Source: Embleya scabrispora (GTDB lineage Bacteria > Actinomycetota > Actinomycetes > Streptomycetales > Streptomycetaceae). From it: a stretch of 64,000 nucleotides of DNA. Position 1 is the first letter of the stretch. The number at the start of each line of letters is the position of its first letter. The translations under genes and the position numbers were made by a program. The stretch is from the NCBI RefSeq assembly GCF_002024165.1, contig NZ_MWQN01000001.1:4009365-4073364 (forward strand), in the 5' to 3' direction. The notes under the pieces were generated by a model that worked only from the letters and a program-made list of their open reading frames with translations, searched no databases and had not been told where the DNA came from. This document shows positions 3,278-64,000 of the stretch, piece by piece.

Positions 3278-3796
3278 ATGACAACGCCCGTCCGGCTCTC
3301 CGCGATCGATCTCGTCACGTACACCCCCGGTCTGGCCGCGCTGCTCGTGGACGCGGTGGACGACGGGGCCGGGGTCGGCTTCCTCTCCCCGCTGCCGATC
3401 GACGCGGCCGCCGAGTGGTGGGCGACGCAGGCGGTCGAGATACGCAACAACCGGATCATCGTGTGGGCGACCTCGGATTCCGAGGGCGTCACCGGGACCA
3501 TCCAGCTCCGCTTCGCGGGCATGCCGAACAGCCGGCACCGTGCCGCGATCTCCAAGCTGCTGGTGCACCGACGCGCCAGGGGCAACGGCATCGCCCGCGA
3601 ACTCCTGTCCACCGCCGAGCAGTTCGCCGCCGCGTCCGGCCGCAGCCTGCTCACCCTGGACACCCAGACCGGCAGCGGCGCGGAACGCCTGTACAAACGC
3701 GCCGGCTGGATCGAGTCGGGCGCCATCCCGTCCTACGCGGCGGACGCCTCGGGTGTGCTGCGCTCCACCACGATCTTCCACAAGCACCTGGTCTGA
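3278..3796 (+). CDS. GNAT-family N-acetyltransferase
   Basis: 172 residues. The GNAT acetyl-CoA pyrophosphate-binding motif RRARGNGIA lies around residues 98-106, after the beta-strand segment AAISKLLVHR; the C-terminal LYKRAGW matches the usual end of the GNAT fold. The N-terminal region is longer than in minimal GNATs and resembles aminoglycoside/small-molecule acetyltransferases. The substrate is unknown. It lies 50 bases upstream of the DUF4186 gene and may be cotranscribed with it. Confidence 0.85.
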   Translation: MTTPVRLSAIDLVTYTPGLAALLVDAVDDGAGVGFLSPLPIDAAAEWWATQAVEIRNNRIIVWATSDSEGVTGTIQLRFAGMPNSRHRAAISKLLVHRRARGNGIARELLSTAEQFAAASGRSLLTLDTQTGSGAERLYKRAGWIESGAIPSYAADASGVLRSTTIFHKHLV

Positions 3797-3845
3797 GCCG
3801 GACGAGCACCCGGCCCGGGCCGGACGGGTTACCGTTGGAGGCGAT

Positions 3846-4343
3846 ATGACGACCAAGACCTCCAAGGGCGCCAGGCCCGAGCCGCTCGATGCCCGCCTGG
3901 ACGCGATCGGCAAACTTCCCTCCCGTGCCCGGTTCCACCTTCCCGGCCGGGAACGCACCGTCGCCATGACGCTGGGCGAGTCCGGCGTGCGCTGGTACGC
4001 GTACGACGTGATCGCCCGGCGCATCGGCCCCGCCAAGCCGAGCAGGGACGGCCGGCAGACCCCGTACCGGGGCCACCCGGTCTTCGTCGCGCAGCATGCC
4101 ACGGGCACCTGCTGCCGGGGCTGCCTGGAGGAAGTGCACGGCATCCCCCAGGGCCGGCCGCTCGACAAGGCCGAGTTGAACTACGCGGTCAACCTCGTCT
4201 GCGGCTGGCTCACCCGGGAGATCGGCCCGGTCGCCAAGACCCGCACGAGTCGCCCGCCGCGATCGGCGATGCCGGCCGTCCCGGAGAACCCGACCGGCGC
4301 CCCGAGGACGGGTCGCGGTCTGCGGGCGTCCAAGTCCCGCTGA
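3846..4343 (+). CDS. DUF4186 family protein
   Basis: 165 residues from ATG 3846 with a GGAG-like site seven bases upstream. The core matches DUF4186: LPSRARFHL, then YDVIARRIGPAKPSRDGRQT, GHPVFVAQHATGTCCRGCL, then HGIPQGRPL and a helical LNYAVNLVCGWL. The paired cysteines of TCCRGC together with nearby histidines could bind metal; this is inference. The last 35 residues are a basic, proline-rich tail beyond the usual domain. The family has no established function. It converges on the FN3 lipoprotein gene. Confidence 0.85.
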   Translation: MTTKTSKGARPEPLDARLDAIGKLPSRARFHLPGRERTVAMTLGESGVRWYAYDVIARRIGPAKPSRDGRQTPYRGHPVFVAQHATGTCCRGCLEEVHGIPQGRPLDKAELNYAVNLVCGWLTREIGPVAKTRTSRPPRSAMPAVPENPTGAPRTGRGLRASKSR

Positions 4344-4392
4344 GCCGAGCACCCGCCGCGCCGTACCCGCCGATGCCCGGCCCGCACGGCGC

Positions 4393-5394
4393 TCACGGCC
4401 CGCCCGGCGTCGCGGCGCCGGGCGGTGCGTCGGTGACGGTCAGGTCGGCCGAGAACTCGCCCCACGTCCCGTCGGGCAACTGGCCCCGGATCTTCAGCAC
4501 GTGCCCGACCGCCCGCTGATCGCCCAGCGGCAGGCTGTACCGCGCCGTCTCCGTCGGCGGCGCCGCGCCCCACTGGACCGTGGTCAGGAACCGCCCGTCC
4601 AGATACACCTCGTAGCTCGCGACCACCCCGTCCACGTCCGGCGGGGTCCAGGTCAGGTCGACATAGGTGCCGTCCGCCGCGGTGCGCGGGATCGCGCGCA
4701 GGTCGGTCGGCGCGGTGTTGCGACCGTTCCCGGCGCCCTGTTCGGTGACCACCGTGACGGGGCTGCTCGCCGGCGACTTGTTGTCGGCGGCGTCGCGCGC
4801 GGTGACGGTGAACACGTACTCGGTGCCCGGGCGCAATCCGGTGACCACCGCCGTGGTGCGATCCGCGGCGACGCTGTGCACCCGTACGCCGGCCTGCCAC
4901 ACGTCGTACGCGGTCACCCCCACGTCGTCCGTGGCGGCCGCCCACGTCAGCGTCGCCCCGTCCTTGCCCCGGGCCTGGCCGCGCAGGTTCCCGGGCGCGG
5001 TCGGCGGCACCCGCTCGCCCTGGACCACGGACGGCGTGGTGGCCGGCACCTGCGGGCTCGCCGCCGACACGTTCCCGGCCTTGTCCTTGGCCCGCACGGA
5101 GAACGTGTACGCGGTCCCCGGCGTCAGCCCGCCCACGTCCACCATGTGCCGCCCGCCGGTGACGTCCAGCACCTTGGCGTCGCCGCGATACACCTCGAAC
5201 ACCGCCACGCTCGGATCGGCCCGCCACATCACGTGCACCGAGACCGAACTCGACGCGAGCGCGCTCACCTCGACGGGCACCGGCGGCGGCGTGGTATCAC
5301 GCCCGTCGTCCGAACACCCGGTCACCGCCAGCGCAACGACCAAGCCGGTCAAGCCGATCCGTGCCACCCGTCGCGCCACAACGCCTCTCTCCAC
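4393..5394 (-). CDS. Lipoprotein with three fibronectin type III domains
   Basis: 333 residues. The N-terminus is a lipoprotein signal with lipobox AVTGC (cysteine at residue 27). Three fibronectin type III domains follow at roughly residues 34-120, 128-220 and 228-325; each of the first two has the late motif LTPGTAYTFSVRAKD / LRPGTEYVFTVTARD typical of FN3 and a linker starting with PP(T/V). No enzymatic domain is attached, although in actinomycetes FN3 repeats usually accompany secreted glycosidases. Likely a surface-anchored binding protein. It is divergent from the lipoprotein pair at 5627 and 6551, so all three may act at the same envelope site. Confidence 0.85.
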   Translation of the reverse strand: MERGVVARRVARIGLTGLVVALAVTGCSDDGRDTTPPPVPVEVSALASSSVSVHVMWRADPSVAVFEVYRGDAKVLDVTGGRHMVDVGGLTPGTAYTFSVRAKDKAGNVSAASPQVPATTPSVVQGERVPPTAPGNLRGQARGKDGATLTWAAATDDVGVTAYDVWQAGVRVHSVAADRTTAVVTGLRPGTEYVFTVTARDAADNKSPASSPVTVVTEQGAGNGRNTAPTDLRAIPRTAADGTYVDLTWTPPDVDGVVASYEVYLDGRFLTTVQWGAAPPTETARYSLPLGDQRAVGHVLKIRGQLPDGTWGEFSADLTVTDAPPGAATPGGP

Positions 5395-5626
5395 CGATCA
5401 CCAGAGGAGCAATTGGTCTAGACATATATGACACAGTCCCCCGCCCCGGAACAAGAGCACGGCTCCGCGCGTGGCCCCGCCGGGCCGCCGAACCCGCCGG
5501 TCGGATCCGGGGAACTCCCCGTGACTTTCCCGGGAATCGCGCAATCCCTCGGGTTCGGGTGTGGGAGTTCGCGCCACCCGCTTGAATGGACCTCGACGCT
5601 GGGGTTTCGGGAGGCGGGGGCGTTCC

Positions 5627-6475
5627 ATGGTGCGCAAGGTGGGGATGGCGACGGCCCTGATCGTGAGCGGGGTGCTCGCGGCCGGGTGTTCGGGCGGGTC
5701 GTCCAAGGGCGGGCCGTTCGGCCTCGGGGTGAGCGATTCGCCCACCGTGACCCGGAGTTCGACGCAGAACCCGGAACCGCCGCCGCCGCCCTCGCCGGAT
5801 CCGGTCACCCCGGAGCCGGTCACCACCAGTGCCACGCCGCGTCCCACCACGACCGCCCGCCCCGACGTGACGCTGACCGCCGCGCGGGCGCAGACCGTGG
5901 TCTCCGCCGTCGCGCTCGTCCCCAAGGACTGGGGCGACACCTACGTCCCCCAGGAGCAGAACTACGAACACACCGCGCTCGACCGGGTGATCACCGGCAC
6001 CGACTGCAAGCAGGCGCTCCAGGGCACCACCCCGGGGGCGCTCGCGACGATGGGGCGCTACGTGTACATCCCCGACGGCAAGCCGAGCGTGGACAACCTC
6101 AGCAAGACGCTCGCCACGTCCTCCGCGACCGTGTACTCCACCGCCGTCGCGGCCCGTACCGACATGCAGATCGGACTCGCCGACGCCCGGCGCTGCCCGA
6201 ACCAGGTGCTCGGCGGCGACGAGAAGCTGAACGGCATCCAGGTCCTGGACCTGACCGTGGAGGGCATCGACGAGGTACACGTCGCCCGCGCCCAGTGGGT
6301 CTCCGGCCACGGCGGCGCGCCGTTCCAGTACGTGTGGGTGACGGCTCGGCAGGGACAGATGGTGCTCACCGCGGCGGTCGTCGACCGGGGCGACAAGACC
6401 TTCGAGTCGGCCAAGAACCAGGCGATCGACGCGCTGGCCAAGATGATCGCCCGCACCACCGTGCACCTGCGCTGA
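5627..6475 (+). CDS. Secreted lipoprotein, paralogue of the next gene
   Basis: 282 residues from ATG 5627 with a GGGAGGCGGGGG site upstream; a longer frame from 5561 lacks one. Signal peptide with lipobox LAAGC (cysteine 21). A Pro/Thr-rich low-complexity linker (about residues 45-85) leads to a globular domain with motif ALVPKDWGDTYVPQEQNYE, a cysteine in GTDCKQAL and a second in ARRCPN. The downstream neighbour has the same order (ALAPEDWGGGFVKQSTYE, DCTQQT, DRCPT), so the two are diverged tandem duplicates. The domain loosely resembles extracellular sensor domains of actinobacterial kinases, but I cannot confirm that. Function unknown. Confidence 0.8.
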   Translation: MVRKVGMATALIVSGVLAAGCSGGSSKGGPFGLGVSDSPTVTRSSTQNPEPPPPPSPDPVTPEPVTTSATPRPTTTARPDVTLTAARAQTVVSAVALVPKDWGDTYVPQEQNYEHTALDRVITGTDCKQALQGTTPGALATMGRYVYIPDGKPSVDNLSKTLATSSATVYSTAVAARTDMQIGLADARRCPNQVLGGDEKLNGIQVLDLTVEGIDEVHVARAQWVSGHGGAPFQYVWVTARQGQMVLTAAVVDRGDKTFESAKNQAIDALAKMIARTTVHLR

Positions 6476-6550
6476 CCCGACGCGACCGCGCCGACCTCGC
6501 GCAAGCACGGTGAATATCATGTGGGTTTCCGCTCACGGGGGAGTCATCGG

Positions 6551-57384: not shown

Positions 57385-60204
57385 TTGAGTCCATTGATAC
57401 CCGGGAGGGGTGCGACGCCGCCCCAAGGCGTCCGGCGGGTGAAGCGCCGCGTGGCACTGCTGTCCGTGTCCGCGCTTGCGATCACCGGCCTCGCGGCCAC
57501 GACCGCGCCCTCGACATCCGCCACGCCTACGCGCGTGGACACCACAAAGGCGGTGTGGAACCCGGGCCCCGAGGACCACTACGTCAACTCCGTCGATGCG
57601 GCGATCGACACCAGCGCGCTGCCGGACGATCCGGCCAAGGCGGCGGCGCTCAAGGCGCAGAACGAGCGCAACGCCGCGACCAAGCGCAAGAATTCGGACG
57701 GCAACCCGCGCGCCGCCGCCCAGCTCAAGGAGCTGGAGGCCGAGGCGAGCCGCACGGGCAAGAGCCCGGCCGAGATCAAGGCCGAGCGCAGCGGCAAGCC
57801 CGTCGACGCCAAGCAGAACGCGAAGCTGCTCACCGTTCTGGTCGAGTTCAACGACCAGGCCAACGACGACTTCTCCGGGTACAAGCGCCCGACCAGCGTG
57901 TCGGACCCGACGTGTGTCACCGAGCCCCCCGGCACGGTGAAGAACGGGCCGCTGCACAACCAGCTGCCCAACCCGGCGCTGAACCCGAACGACAACAACA
58001 CGCAGTGGGTGCCGAACTTCGACCAGGCCCACTACAACAAGATGCTCTACACCAAGGAGGGCATCACCGAGCGCATGCGCACCGACCTCAAGGGGCCGGA
58101 CGGCAAGCCGGGCATCAGCCTCGCGGGCCAGACCATGCGCAACATGTACGAGGAGATGTCGGCCGGAAAGTACTCCGTCTCCGGCGAGGCCACCTCCTGG
58201 ATCAAGGTTCCGCACTCCGAGGCCTGGTACGGCGCGGGCGCCTGCGGCAACGCCCAGCAGGACAACAGCGGCAGCCCGCAGAACCCGCTGGGCGCGCAGC
58301 GGCTCGCCATCGACGCGGTGGACCAGCTGGCCAAGTCGCAGCCGAGCTTCCCGTGGGCGGACTACGACAAGGAAGACCCGGGCGACGCCGACCACGACGG
58401 CAACACCCAGGAGCCGGACGGCGTGGTGGACCACCTGGTCCTGGTCCACGCCGGCAAGGACAAGTCCGCCGGCGGCGGCGCCGAGGGCACCTACGCCATC
58501 TGGGCACACGCCTCCACCGTGCTCTTCGGACACCAGGTCCCCGGCAGCAACATCAAGATCGCGAACTACATCGTCCAGCCCGAGGACTCCGGAGTGGGCG
58601 TCTTCGCCCACGAATTCGGCCACGACCTCGGACTCCCCGACCTGTACGACAACTTCAGCGGCGGGCAGACGGACCTGAACTTCTGGGACCTGATGTCGGC
58701 CGGTTCGCACACCGGCCCGCTGTTCCAGTCGCAGCCCGCGCACATGGGCATCTGGGACAAGTACGCGCTCGGTTGGCTGACTCCGGACCTGGTCAAGGTC
58801 GGTGACCGGCCCAAGGTCGCCACGCTGGGCCAGGCCGCGAAGACGCCCAAGGGCACCTCGCGGGGCATCCGGGTCAACCTGCCGAACAAGCAGGTCGCGG
58901 TCGGCAAGCCGCACGGCGGCAACGGCATGTGGTACTCCGGTCAGGACCAGGCCTGGTCCGACGTCCGGATCGAGCGCGGCATCGCGGTGCCGGCCGGCTC
59001 CGACGTGAAGTTCTGGATGTGGAACGACTACGTCATCGAGCAGGACTGGGACTTCGGCTTCGTCGAGGTGTCCACCGACAACGGCGCCACCTGGAAGCAG
59101 CTCGCGGTCAAGGACGAGGCGGGCGCGCTGGTCAGCACGCCGGCGGACTACCCGGACCCGCAGAAGAACCTGGCCACGTTCCGCAAGACCAGCGGTCTGA
59201 CCGGTTCCAGCAACGGGTGGCGGCACGACAACGTCGACCTGACCCCGTACGCGGGGCAGAACATCAAGCTGCGGTTGGACCTCAACACCGACGCCGCCTT
59301 CATGGAGAAGGGTTGGTTCGCCGACGACTTCTCGCTCACCAACGGCGGCACCACGGTGTGGTCCGACGACGTGGAGCAGGGCGACAACGGCTGGACCGCG
59401 ATCAAGGGCACCAACGCGATCACCAAGGGCGAGGGCTGGGGCCGGACCAACGGCACCTTCGAGCGGGAGCAGTACTACCTGCTGGAGTGGCGCAACCTGT
59501 CCGGCTTCGACGAGGGCCTGAAGTACGCGTACACCGCCGGCGAGAACGGCAAGACCAACCGGGTGCCGTACAACGCGCCGGGCATGCTGGTGTGGCTGCG
59601 CGACAACGAGTACCAGAACAACGGCGTCAACTTCAACATCAACAACGGGCCCTCGTGGGGTCCGAAGGGTGAGCTGTTGATCGTCGACTCGCACCCGGAC
59701 CCGCTGCGCTACGCCGGCGAGGCCGCGGCGCAGTTCCCCAAGCCCGACCCGAACTCCCCGGGCATCGAGTCGAAGAACGTGTTCGGCAACCTCGGCTCCC
59801 GGTCGCAGTCGGCCAACGCGGCGTTCGGCTTCACCAAGACCACGCCGTTCACGGACTGCATCCCCGGCACCAAGTACTGCACCTCGTTCGAGGCGCAGAA
59901 GCCGGTGACGCTGTTCACCGACACGGTCGGCTGGGCGCCGGGCACCGAGATGTACAAGGGTCGCGCGCTGCCCAAGGACCGCTACGGCTCGGCCGTGGTC
60001 CCGGCGAAGGCGCCGTACACGACCAAGGTCACCAAGGCGGACGGCTCGCTGGACAAGGACGCGTTCGGCAAGCTGTTCCACGGCTCCGAGTTGGGCACGG
60101 GCAACCCGGGCTTCGACAAGGGCTACGGCGTGACCGCGCTGCCGGTGCTCCCGCTGCCGGGCGGCTCCGGCGCGGTGGTCTGGATCCTGCCCGCGCAGAA
60201 GTAG
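57385..60204 (+). CDS. Secreted M6-family metalloprotease (immune inhibitor A-like), first copy
   Basis: 939 residues from TTG 57385, chosen for GGGGAG just upstream; GTG 57439 is the main alternative and gives a more classical signal peptide ([19 protein letters not shown]). Propeptide-like region to about residue 140, catalytic domain with zinc motif [11 protein letters not shown] (His409), then [11 protein letters not shown] and the C-terminal MAM/jelly-roll-like region with [17 protein letters not shown]. InhA/immune-inhibitor A proteases degrade proteins outside the cell. A 295-bp tract covering the active site is identical in the second copy at 60660. Confidence 0.93.
58371..58665 (+). 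repeat. Identical tract, copy 1 (in first M6 protease)
   Basis: 295 bases here are 100% identical, in inverted orientation, to 62196-62490 in the second M6 protease. I compared the whole tract line by line. Immediately outside both ends the genes differ at many positions (for example ACAAGG versus ACAGGG at the 5' end, and GGGCAGACG versus GGGGACACC at the 3' end). Includes the codons for the zinc motif. Confidence 0.97.
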
Positions 60205-60232
60205 GTTCCTCCGCGCGTGACGGTCGCGTGGC

Positions 60233-60295
60233 GGTGGAGCCGGTAGGTCCGGTGGATCCGTTGGATCCGGTGGATCCGTGGGATTCGTAGGACGA
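60233..60295. repeat. 9-bp tandem repeat (minisatellite)
   Basis: Seven consecutive units of nine bases from 60233 to 60295 with consensus GGTGGATCC (units: GGTGGAGCC, GGTAGGTCC, GGTGGATCC, GTTGGATCC, GGTGGATCC, GTGGGATTC, GTAGGACGA). It lies between the first M6 protease stop and the terminator. The complementary strand would read Gly-Ser-Thr-like triplets, but no start site suggests translation. Confidence 0.9.
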
Positions 60296-60327
60296 AAGGG
60301 GCGCTCCCGAGTGGGGGCGCCCCTTTT
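60295..60327. terminator. Bidirectional terminator with T-run between protease 1 and xseB
   Basis: AAAGGGGCGC (60295-60304) pairs with GCGCCCCTTT (60317-60326), followed by a T. It has the classical poly-U tail missing from most terminators in this window. Confidence 0.85.
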
Positions 60328-60366
60328 GCCGTGCCGTTCGTGCCTCGTGTCGGGTCGGTCGGCGGG

Positions 60367-60630
60367 TCAGCCGTCCCGCTCGGCCGACGCGTCCGGTCCA
60401 CCGTCGGCCGCGCCGGCGCGGACCGCCGCGTCCAGGCGGGCCCGGGCGCCGTCGAGCCACTGCTCGCAGACCACGGCGAGCCGCTCGCCGCGCTCCCACA
60501 GGGCCAGCGACTCCTCCAGGGTGATGCCGCCGGTCTCCAGGCGGCGCACGACCTCGATCAGCTCGTCACGGGCCTGCTCGTAGGCCGGTGCCTCGTCCTC
60601 CGGTACGGATGCGGTCTGCTGCTCGCTCAT
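60367..60630 (-). CDS. xseB: Exodeoxyribonuclease VII small subunit
   Basis: 87 residues. Classic XseB helix-pair: [44 protein letters not shown], read in segments, including the LExGxxxLEESLxLWERG signature. Forms ExoVII with XseA, which degrades single-stranded DNA. Usually directly downstream of xseA; here 2.9 kb and the second M6 protease gene lie between. Acidic C-terminus is normal. Confidence 0.94.
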
Positions 60631-60659
60631 GGCGTCAGCCTAGTTCGTGGGTGTGGGGG

Positions 60660-63362
60660 TCACGGGCGGGCCGGGGTGACCCGCACGGCGGCGCCGCGGT
60701 TCGGGTCGCGCCCGGCCGGGCTCACCAGTGCGGCCGAGGCGCCGTAGGCGAGGGTGGCGCCGGGATCGCCGCTGCCGAGCACGGAGCCCTTGTACGGCAC
60801 GCCGTAGTGCCCGGGGTCGGGCGAGCCGTCCGGAAGGACCACGCGGGTGCTGTACGGCCCGCGCGCGGGCACCACGGTCGACCCGTCGGTGAAGCGGTCC
60901 ACGGGCGCGCCGTCGACGTACTCCACGCCCGGCGCCCAGCCGCGCGCGTCGGAGAACGCGCGGACCGGTTCGCGGGCGGCGAAGTCCTGGCACCACGCGC
61001 CGTTGGAGTGGCACGCGACGAACGCCGGGGTGGGGGCGAAGCCGAACGCGGCGTCGGCGGACTGGGCGCGGCTGTCCAGGTTCTTCCGCGGGTTGCTCTT
61101 CGCCGGGTAGTGCTCGGCCGCCTCGCCCGTCCAGCGGCGCGGGTCGGGATGGGCGTCCACGAGCAGCGTCTGGCCCTTGGCGCCGTAGCTGGGCGGCGCG
61201 CCGAGATTGAAGTTCACACCGTTGTTCTGGTATTCGGCGTCGCGCAGCCAGACCAGCATGCCGGGCACGTTGTAGCCCAACCGGCGGACCCGTACGCCCC
61301 GTTCGTCGCTGTGCCCGGCGGTGTAGGCGTGGCTCAGGCCGCGGTCGAAGCCGACGGGCGCGCGCCACTCCAGGAGGTAGTACTGCTCGCGCTCGACCTC
61401 GCCGGAGGTCTGCCCCCAGCCCGCCCCGCGGGTGACCGTGGTACTGCCCCTGGTCGCGGTCCAGCCGTTGTCGCCCCGCTCCGCGTCGTCGGACCACACC
61501 GTGCCGCCGTCGGCGCCGCCGGTGAGCGTGAAGTCGTCGGCGAACCAGCCCTTCTCCATGAAGGCGGCGTCGGTGTTGTAGGTCAGGCGCACGGCGATCG
61601 TGCGGCCCGCGTACGGGGTCAGGTCGACGTTGTCGTGCCGCCAGCCGTCGGTGGTGCCGGTCAGGCCGTTGGCCTTGCGCAGCTCGGCGAGGTTGTGGTT
61701 CGGGTCGGGATAGTCGGGCGGGGTGCTCACCGGGTTGCCGGCATCGTCCCTGACCGCGAGCTGGGTCCAGGTGGCGCCGTTGTCGGCGGAGGCCTCGACG
61801 AAGCCGAAGTCCCAGTCCTGTTCGATGGTGTAGTCGTTCCACATGGAGAAGGTCGCGGGGCCGCCGGCGGGGATCGTGAGGTCGCGGACCAGGCGCGCGT
61901 CGGACCATTCCTGGTCCCGCTCCGAGTACCACATGTGCGTGCCGCTGTGCGGGGTGCCGATCCGGACACGTTCGTCGGGCAGGTTCACCCGGACCGCGTC
62001 GCGGGTGCCGGGCGACGGGGCGGCGGCGGCGCCGAGCAGCACGGTGGAGGGTGCGCCGCCGACCGGGACGACCGGGGGATCGATCCAGCCCAGCACGTAC
62101 TTCGACCACGCGCCCATGTGCGCGGGCATGGTCTGGAACAGCGGGCCGGCATGCGATCCGGAGGACATCAGGTCCCAGAAGTCGACGTCGGTGTCCCCGC
62201 CGCTGAAGTTGTCGTACAGGTCGGGGAGTCCGAGGTCGTGGCCGAATTCGTGGGCGAAGACGCCCACTCCGGAGTCCTCGGGCTGGACGATGTAGTTCGC
62301 GATCTTGATGTTGCTGCCGGGGACCTGGTGTCCGAAGAGCACGGTGGAGGCGTGTGCCCAGATGGCGTAGGTGCCCTCGGCGCCGCCGCCGGCGGACTTG
62401 TCCTTGCCGGCGTGGACCAGGACCAGGTGGTCCACCACGCCGTCCGGCTCCTGGGTGTTGCCGTCGTGGTCGGCGTCGCCCGGGTCTTCCCTGTCGTAGT
62501 CCGCCCACGGGAAGTCGGGCCGGGCGGCGGCCAGTGCGTCCACCGCGTCGGTGACGAACTGCCGTACCCCGCGCGGGTTCTGCGGGCTGCCGCCGTTGTC
62601 CTGGCGAATCGCGCCGCAGTGGCCGGCGGCGTACCAGGCCTCGGAGTGCGGGACGGTCACCCAGTCGGTCGCCTCGCCGCCGATCGAGTAGGAGCCGTGC
62701 GACATCTCCCGGTACATCGAGCGCATGGTCAGGCCGGTGAGGTCGATGCCCGGTCTGCCGTCGGGGCCGGTCAGGTCGGGACGGACGCGCTCGGTGATGC
62801 CCTGATCGGAGTAGAGCATCCGGTCGTAGTGGTCCTTGCCGAAGTCCGCGACCCACAGCGTGTTGTTGTCCGCGCCGCCGACCGCCGGATCCGGCAGCAG
62901 ATTGTGCCGGGGACCGTTCTTGACGGTGCCGGGCGGCTCGGTCACACAGGTCGGATCGGCCACGCTCATGGGCCGGCGGAACCCGGAGAAGTCGTCGTCG
63001 GCGTGATCGTCGAACTCGACGAGAACGGTCAGGAGCCGCGCCTCGCGGTGCGGTGCCCCCTCCTGGGCCCGAGGACTGACCCCGGTCCGAGCGGCGACCG
63101 CCTCGGCCCGCGCGAGCCGGCGCGCGGCGACGGGGTTGCCGGCGGCGAACTTGCGGTCGTACTCCCGCGCCCGCCGCTCCGCGGCGACCGCCCACTTCCG
63201 ACTTTCCGGCGGCAACGGATCTCTCGGCGCGACGTAGTTCACATAGAAGTCGGCAACGGACGGATTCCACCGCGCGGGCGAGTCATCGTCGGCGAGTGCC
63301 ACGGGGGCCGTGACAACACCGGTGAACAACAACGCGGACGCGGCCAGCAGATGACGCAACAC
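60660..63362 (-). CDS. Secreted M6-family metalloprotease (immune inhibitor A-like), second copy
   Basis: 900 residues from ATG 63362 with a Sec signal (LRHLLAASALLFTGVVTAP). Same domain order as the first copy; zinc motif [11 protein letters not shown] at His371. The catalytic tract 62196-62490 is base-for-base identical to the first copy while the remainder is clearly diverged (for example it lacks the tandem propeptide stretch and has extra Gly/Pro-rich loops). It sits between xseA and xseB on their strand, so it interrupts a normally tight pair. Likely secreted, overlapping in activity with the first copy. Orientation relative to the first is convergent via xseB. Confidence 0.92.
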   Translation of the reverse strand: MLRHLLAASALLFTGVVTAPVALADDDSPARWNPSVADFYVNYVAPRDPLPPESRKWAVAAERRAREYDRKFAAGNPVAARRLARAEAVAARTGVSPRAQEGAPHREARLLTVLVEFDDHADDDFSGFRRPMSVADPTCVTEPPGTVKNGPRHNLLPDPAVGGADNNTLWVADFGKDHYDRMLYSDQGITERVRPDLTGPDGRPGIDLTGLTMRSMYREMSHGSYSIGGEATDWVTVPHSEAWYAAGHCGAIRQDNGGSPQNPRGVRQFVTDAVDALAAARPDFPWADYDREDPGDADHDGNTQEPDGVVDHLVLVHAGKDKSAGGGAEGTYAIWAHASTVLFGHQVPGSNIKIANYIVQPEDSGVGVFAHEFGHDLGLPDLYDNFSGGDTDVDFWDLMSSGSHAGPLFQTMPAHMGAWSKYVLGWIDPPVVPVGGAPSTVLLGAAAAPSPGTRDAVRVNLPDERVRIGTPHSGTHMWYSERDQEWSDARLVRDLTIPAGGPATFSMWNDYTIEQDWDFGFVEASADNGATWTQLAVRDDAGNPVSTPPDYPDPNHNLAELRKANGLTGTTDGWRHDNVDLTPYAGRTIAVRLTYNTDAAFMEKGWFADDFTLTGGADGGTVWSDDAERGDNGWTATRGSTTVTRGAGWGQTSGEVEREQYYLLEWRAPVGFDRGLSHAYTAGHSDERGVRVRRLGYNVPGMLVWLRDAEYQNNGVNFNLGAPPSYGAKGQTLLVDAHPDPRRWTGEAAEHYPAKSNPRKNLDSRAQSADAAFGFAPTPAFVACHSNGAWCQDFAAREPVRAFSDARGWAPGVEYVDGAPVDRFTDGSTVVPARGPYSTRVVLPDGSPDPGHYGVPYKGSVLGSGDPGATLAYGASAALVSPAGRDPNRGAAVRVTPARP
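62196..62490 (-). repeat. Identical tract, copy 2 (in second M6 protease)
   Basis: Exact inverted copy of 58371-58665; see that entry. Separation about 3.5 kb. Both flanks diverge at once, which argues for gene conversion more than simple recent duplication. Confidence 0.97.
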
Positions 63363-63519
63363 ATGCGCAAAATATGCCGCTCAACCCACGAACCAGGCCG
63401 AATCCACCACCCCATCCCACAAACGGCCCAAACCCCCGCGCCCCAAGGACCGACGGCCGGCAACCCTCACCGCAGCCACCCCACCGGGACAAGCCGATGC
63501 GGCCCGTCCGGCGCCATCT

Positions 63520-63543
63520 CAGCCCGTCCGGCGCTTGAGGACC
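63520..63543. repeat. Streptomyces-type intergenic motif, second copy
   Basis: CAGCCCGTCCGGCGCTTGAGGAC with a partial copy GGCCCGTCCGGCGCC just upstream (about 63501-63515). Same element as 55245-55267, located between xseA and the second M6 protease. Confidence 0.55.
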
Positions 63544-63550
63544 CACGCCG

Positions 63551-64000
63551 TTACCCACCGTCCGCCGCAGTGCCGTCCCCCACCACCACGTCGAAGCGTC
63601 CCGTCGCCACCCGCGCGGTCAGCGCCTCACCCGCCGCCACCTCGCCCGGATCCCGCACCGCATGGCCGTCCGCCCGCTGCAGCACCGCGTACCCCCGCTC
63701 CAAAGTCGCCGCCGGAGACAACGCGACCACCCGCGCCCGCGTGTGCGCGAGGTCGCTCTCGGCCCGCTCCAGGAGGTGCCGCAGCGTACGCCGAGAGCGC
63801 TCCACCAGCCCGGCCACCTCCTCCGCCCGCAGGTCCACCATCCGCTGCGGATCGGCCAACACCGGCCGCGAACGCGCGGCCCGCAACCCCTGACACTCCC
63901 GATCCAACCGCGCCCGCAACGCGAGCCGCCCCCGATCGCGCACCTGGTGCACCTTGTGCAACTCCTCGCGAATATCCGGCACGATCCGCTTCGCCGCATC
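63551..64000 (-). CDS. xseA: Exodeoxyribonuclease VII large subunit, C-terminal part (5' end outside window)
   Basis: The frame is open to the window edge, giving the last 149 residues. [14 protein letters not shown] and the coiled-coil region [16 protein letters not shown] are typical of XseA C-terminal helices; the closing [16 protein letters not shown] and [10 protein letters not shown] end the protein. The catalytic N-terminal part is outside the window. Pairs with XseB at 60367. Confidence 0.93.

Follow-up and report, generated by a model that had tools for sequence, protein, structure and literature searches.

How did two strongly diverged protease genes come to share a stretch of DNA that is identical down to the last silent site? 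In the 64,000-nucleotide stretch of Embleya DNA analysed here (the window), two genes encoding M6 family metalloproteases, A and B, carry an inverted tract whose arms match at 295/295 positions. It is highly probable that this tract arose by interlocus gene conversion, that is, by homologous recombination in which A was the donor and B the recipient.

Genes A and B are convergent in the window genome, which consists of 8 contigs with a total length of 10.96 Mb. The Pfam Peptidase_M6 domain (PF05547, cut-off 22 bits) was found at residues 125-441 of A and 105-421 of B, with scores of 213.7 and 215.2 bits, respectively. Both proteins also contain InhA-like_MAM and InhA-like_VEG domains and match NCBIfam TIGR03296. 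This domain set, common to A and B, is that of M6 metalloproteases of the immune inhibitor A type; no unusual domains were revealed in either protein by the Pfam and NCBIfam scans. The catalytic domains of both proteins contain the HExxHxxGxxD motif, whose 11 residues, which we take to be the zinc/metal site of M6 enzymes, are unchanged between A, B, and the copies from another genus. Beyond gene B lies the end of an xseA-like gene; its TIGR00237 score (75.6 bits) is below the cut-off of 180, the match covering the last third of the profile and the examined frame being a 143-aa fragment. Within positions 60367-63982, gene B is thus flanked by xseB and xseA, with all three coding on one strand. 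A third close M6 paralogue, gene C, is located at 3793-6492 of locus L048 (contig C4 of the window genome). It lies on a separate contig from A and B in 4/4 Embleya genomes and is split over two contigs in one of them (SID3343). The accessible part of PMC13152386 reports a large secondary chromosome in Embleya.

Table 1. Features of the A/B locus, in positions of the window
Feature	Positions	Strand	Basis or remark
Gene A (donor), M6 family metalloprotease, 921 aa, GTG start	57439..60204	+	Pfam, NCBIfam
Gene B (recipient), M6 family metalloprotease, 900 aa, GTG start	60660..63362	-	Pfam, NCBIfam
xseB, exodeoxyribonuclease VII small subunit, between A and B	60367..60630	-	NCBIfam TIGR01280
Identical tract, A arm	58371..58665	+	residues 311-409
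Identical tract, B arm (probable converted stretch)	62196..62490	-	residues 291-389
11-residue motif of A, HExxHxxGxxD type, within the tract	58609..58641	+	
11-residue motif of B, HExxHxxGxxD type, within the tract	62220..62252	-	
Left-edge site	58370 (partner 62491)	+	B has G, like B of E. scabrispora DSM 41855; A-type base in E. hyalina
Silent site	58416 (partner 62445)	+	G in both window copies, C in both E. hyalina copies

The initial annotation described the arms as exact complements, with an abrupt loss of identity at both ends and strong protein-level divergence of the two genes. The complementarity is indeed exact, silent sites included. The repeat search places the tract inside a wider inverted match of 545 nt (89%), and the spacer of 3530 bp between the arms does include xseB, as the TIGR01280 match indicates. 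Outside the tract, with 60 bases on either side of it left out, A and B differ at 732/2261 aligned bases (67.6% identity). Across the full length of the genes, with the tract counted in, amino acid identity is 61%, in agreement with the divergence that had been claimed. When silent codons are compared over both genes, differences are found in 0/97 codons in the tract versus 113/410 outside it, with 10 codons on either side left out. If positions 59060-59430 are also left out, 99/328 silent codons differ outside (Fisher P 1.5e-13 versus the tract). In a permutation test, 105 consecutive variable columns agree between A and B, while the longest such run in 2000 shuffles was 22. As for the edges, the right one is abrupt, at 58666. 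The left one is softer than had been described: beyond a single mismatch at 58370, identity continues for another 23 bases (58347-58369), which gives a match of 318/319.

Four Embleya genomes were compared, including the window genome (suffix 0 of the gene names); the others are E. hyalina NBRC 13850 (G001, suffix 1), E. scabrispora DSM 41855 (G002, suffix 2), and Streptomyces sp. SID3343 (G003, suffix 3). Over the 295 sites of the tract, the number of A/B differences is 0 in the window genome, 1 in E. hyalina, and 32 in E. scabrispora DSM 41855. Hence, the tract is present in the first two genomes and absent from the third, in which A2 and B2 are 89% identical across the same region. The E. 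hyalina tract has the same right edge as that of the window genome and a slightly different left edge. In SID3343, contig C945 (locus L041) ends about 0.2 kb past A with no assembled B there, and a search of this assembly for xseB gave no match. In another genus, each of three genomes (G004, G020, and G030) yields a single M6 match with an E-value of 1e-50 or below. All three copies are of the B type and adjoin xseB on the same strand. In G004 and G030, xseA lies beyond the M6 gene, so the xseB-B-xseA arrangement is found in 2/3 of them; it was not found within the 15 kb taken from G020.

A site was considered diagnostic when A2 and A3 share one base, while B2 and two or more of the three other-genus copies share a different one. 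B0 is A-type at 10/11 such sites inside the tract and B-type at 52/62 (57700-58346), 35/38 (58666-59050), and 89/99 (59430-60190) sites on its sides. The counts for B1 are almost the same: 10/11 in the tract and 54/62, 35/38, and 92/99 in the flanks. A0 is A-type at 10/11 sites in the tract and at 50/62, 37/38, and 90/99 sites in the flanks. Gene B is a mosaic, with an A-like tract between B-like sides; since it switches type at the tract and A is mostly A-type throughout, B was overwritten by A. Phylogenies agree with the mosaic structure. The tract tree groups A0, B0, A1, and B1 with a support of 100/98.9, and this grouping is rejected by the flanks 57700-58340 (3.3e-8) and 59430-60190 (2.6e-39). 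A clade of B0, B1, and B2 is rejected in the tract (p-AU 0.0019), a test that bears on B1 with B2 given that B0, being identical to A0, was left free.

Distances show the same pattern. In the tract, B0 has 23/295 differences from A2 and 36/295 from its own orthologue B2; outside the tract, the corresponding numbers are 730/2252 and 346/2258. At the protein level, 9/98 fully included tract residues differ between B2 and window B, and some of these B2 residues are common to the other-genus copies. The tree says less about direction: the clade uniting the converted copies with A2 and A3 has a support of 59/58, and the p-AU for a clade with B2 plus the other-genus copies is 0.212, which does not reject it, while the clade with B2 alone is rejected (0.041). 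The direction from A to B is thus indicated by the diagnostic sites and distances, and weakly by the tree.

Gene C was also considered as a donor and rejected, having 44/295 differences from the tract. Conversion involving C, with either A or B as its partner, was likewise rejected, the lowest P being 0.095 among 7 pairs with all variable columns. When only fully silent columns are used, the P values for 58377-58494 are 0.016 for A1-C1 and 0.004 for B1-C1; among 30 pair-by-column-set tests, this signal is not convincing. The placement of A together with B2 and the other genus hinted at an older A/B event in the tract. That event was found to be unsupported, since the test does not reject a clade of A and C once the converted rows are removed (p-AU 0.106).

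Identity in a catalytic core might be expected from strong purifying selection without any DNA transfer, and the tract is indeed among the best conserved parts of the genes, A2 and B2 being 89% identical there. The silent codons speak against it: none of the 97 differ in the window pair, versus 13/85 in the A2/B2 pair, and B0 and B2 differ at 21/88 silent tract codons, so these sites are free to vary. In addition, the diagnostic sites change type at the tract edges. Silent and diagnostic sites, as features of the sequences compared, already refute this explanation, which seems to us practically untenable. Repeats of such length can mislead short-read assembly, and one arm might have been copied into the other by misassembly or read collapse. 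This is very unlikely, since the tract recurs in both genes of E. hyalina NBRC 13850, whose sequence is a separate record; its copies carry a private difference and a slightly different left edge, and the arms are 3530 bp apart. The presence of the tract in two species might also be explained by horizontal exchange of an A-bearing stretch between the window species and either E. hyalina or a third strain. The divergence between the species is 1.3-2.3% from 55301 to the end of A and 4.6-6.0% from xseB on, the tract aside; silent codons differ at 17/642 in A, 45/595 in B, and 44/612 in C. Nevertheless, conversion from A to B would be needed anyway, and a shared right edge inside B, with more diverged flanks, fits descent better, which leaves horizontal exchange rather unlikely.

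The inverted geometry raises two further alternatives. With 295-bp identical inverted arms 3.5 kb apart, crossing over between them could flip the segment that contains xseB, as the initial annotation suggested, and the tract might act in such a flip-flop or stem from it; a comparable yeast case is presented in the available text of PMC9731477. Inversion would leave A and B with exchanged halves and xseB on the opposite strand, and neither is seen. The order A(+) xseB(-) B(-) xseA(-) is constant in the 3/4 Embleya genomes with an assembled locus, the window included. In the three other-genus genomes, xseB and B are co-stranded, as is xseA in the 2/3 where it was found, and in the N-side and C-side trees, the A genes of the window species and E. 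hyalina group together, as do their B genes. An inversion is therefore very unlikely, in a comparison of orientation that is blind to an even number of flips, or to inversion in a minority of cells. A template switch at a replication fork that has stalled, instead of break repair, would suit the inverted copies and the sharp right edge; in yeast, as far as the accessible part of PMC8604942 goes, it acts between short inverted repeats, and we consider it an improbable route here. Trees, diagnostic sites, silent sites, and relatives all agree on gene conversion over the active-site segment, as had been proposed at the outset. In such an event, a stretch of A would have been copied to B within one chromosome and with no crossover, and some 295-320 bp of B, corresponding to the catalytic core with its HEFGH motif, would have been overwritten. 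The copying itself was probably ordinary recombination repair between inverted sister genes.

The conversion had been described as recent and the tract as perhaps private to the strain. This does not hold: since the tract, with an identical right edge, also occurs in E. hyalina, the event most likely, and most simply, predates the split of the window species from E. hyalina. If there was one old event, the silent site 58416 would require a second conversion or a parallel change. The latter is not far-fetched, since this site varies widely in the family (G in A3, B2, C2, and C3; C in A2, C0, C1, and the three other-genus copies). The left-edge site 58370 agrees with a later re-conversion but could be one mutation. 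Judging by rates, about 5 silent differences would be expected per genome since the split, and 0 are found in either; for all bases, 6.7 would be expected versus 0 and 1 found. This argument is weakened by gene C, which, without convincing conversion, is also unusually alike in the tract region (1/95 silent codons differing between the window genome and E. hyalina, versus 44/612; P 0.021). Further short A/B conversion after the species split is possible.

The strong signal is confined to the active-site segment, as was initially assumed; weaker ones are not. In E. hyalina, a small A-type patch can be noted in B at 59071-59120, with four sites at which B1 = A1, unlike B0 and B2. An excess of A/B matches at 59241-59424 was detected at variable or third positions in all three genomes tested, with the best P of 0.0015 in the window genome, 0.0005 in E. 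hyalina, and 0 of 2000 in E. scabrispora DSM 41855. In the window genome, it comprises patches at 59283-59312 (P 0.0015) and, at third positions, at 59322-59409 (P 0.006). At fully silent sites, the P for 59241-59424 is 0.017 in E. hyalina, 0.47 in the window genome, and 0.36 in E. scabrispora DSM 41855. One might imagine gene A as a standing one-way template that repeatedly refreshes the catalytic core of the faster-evolving B in Embleya. We regard this idea as doubtful; if it were true, B would retain a proven active site and drift in its other domains, a module-wise form of concerted evolution.

Why the catalytic core was copied can be approached with A2 and B2 as a stand-in for the state before conversion. 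Recombination requires long identical runs. The longest run between A2 and B2 is 68 nt (59264-59331), followed by runs of 40, 38, 33, 28, and 26 nt. Four of these six (40, 38, 28, and 26 nt) fall in the tract, while the longest lies outside it, in the 59241-59424 stretch. Conversion can start at the catalytic core because long identical runs survive there between diverged sisters. We infer that these shared runs led to conversion at the core; selection for matched active sites would be unnecessary as an explanation.

A separate peculiarity of gene B lies at 61500-61620, where the window protein has AVRLTY in place of the KLRLDL found in A and in B of E. hyalina and E. scabrispora DSM 41855. 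In 61501-61600, 15/100 bases differ from E. hyalina. Among the fetched loci, AVRLTY is confined to the window genome.

M6 loci were surveyed more widely, with 78 loci kept from the best 80 of 95 stretches encoding a relative. In the fetched flanks, a close second M6 copy was found in loci L068 and L121, besides the two Embleya A/B loci; the remaining second hits are distant M6 genes with about 26-33% identity. L068 (5003-10688, Acrocarpospora catenulata) contains two adjacent M6 genes with 84% identical DNA. The longest all-base runs are 96 nt in L068, over HExxH, and 72 nt in L121, and the silent-site test revealed no tract in either (P 0.16 and 0.31). Recurrence of M6 conversion outside Embleya was therefore not shown among the 78 loci surveyed. 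Among the papers listed in searches on gene conversion, none describes the A/B locus in its title or abstract opening.

The A/B conversion is an ordinary, known phenomenon and an instructive case. It is a natural example in which donor, recipient, and a tract-free relative are all available, and it illustrates that diverged sister genes may still trade the segment they conserve best. There is also a practical consequence: in trees built solely from the M6 catalytic core, gene B of the window species and E. hyalina would be wrongly placed.

Two known systems, each represented here by the accessible part of its description, are close to this one. As in the conversion between tufA and tufB of Salmonella (PMC5485169), copying would be non-reciprocal and would take place between sister genes of the chromosome. 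The tuf tracts are usually continuous and are affected by mismatch repair (PMC5485169). With 12 nucleotide differences (PMC5485169), the two tuf genes are close to identical, whereas A and B are about 68% identical, with one segment homogenised. Inverted gene pairs of Saccharomyces (PMC9731477) resemble A and B in that inverted sisters are homogenised by copying from one to the other; in yeast, this is recurrent. In that system, however, the arms are 4 kb long and a 24-kb region flips (PMC9731477), while the A/B arms measure 0.3 kb, with no inversion seen.
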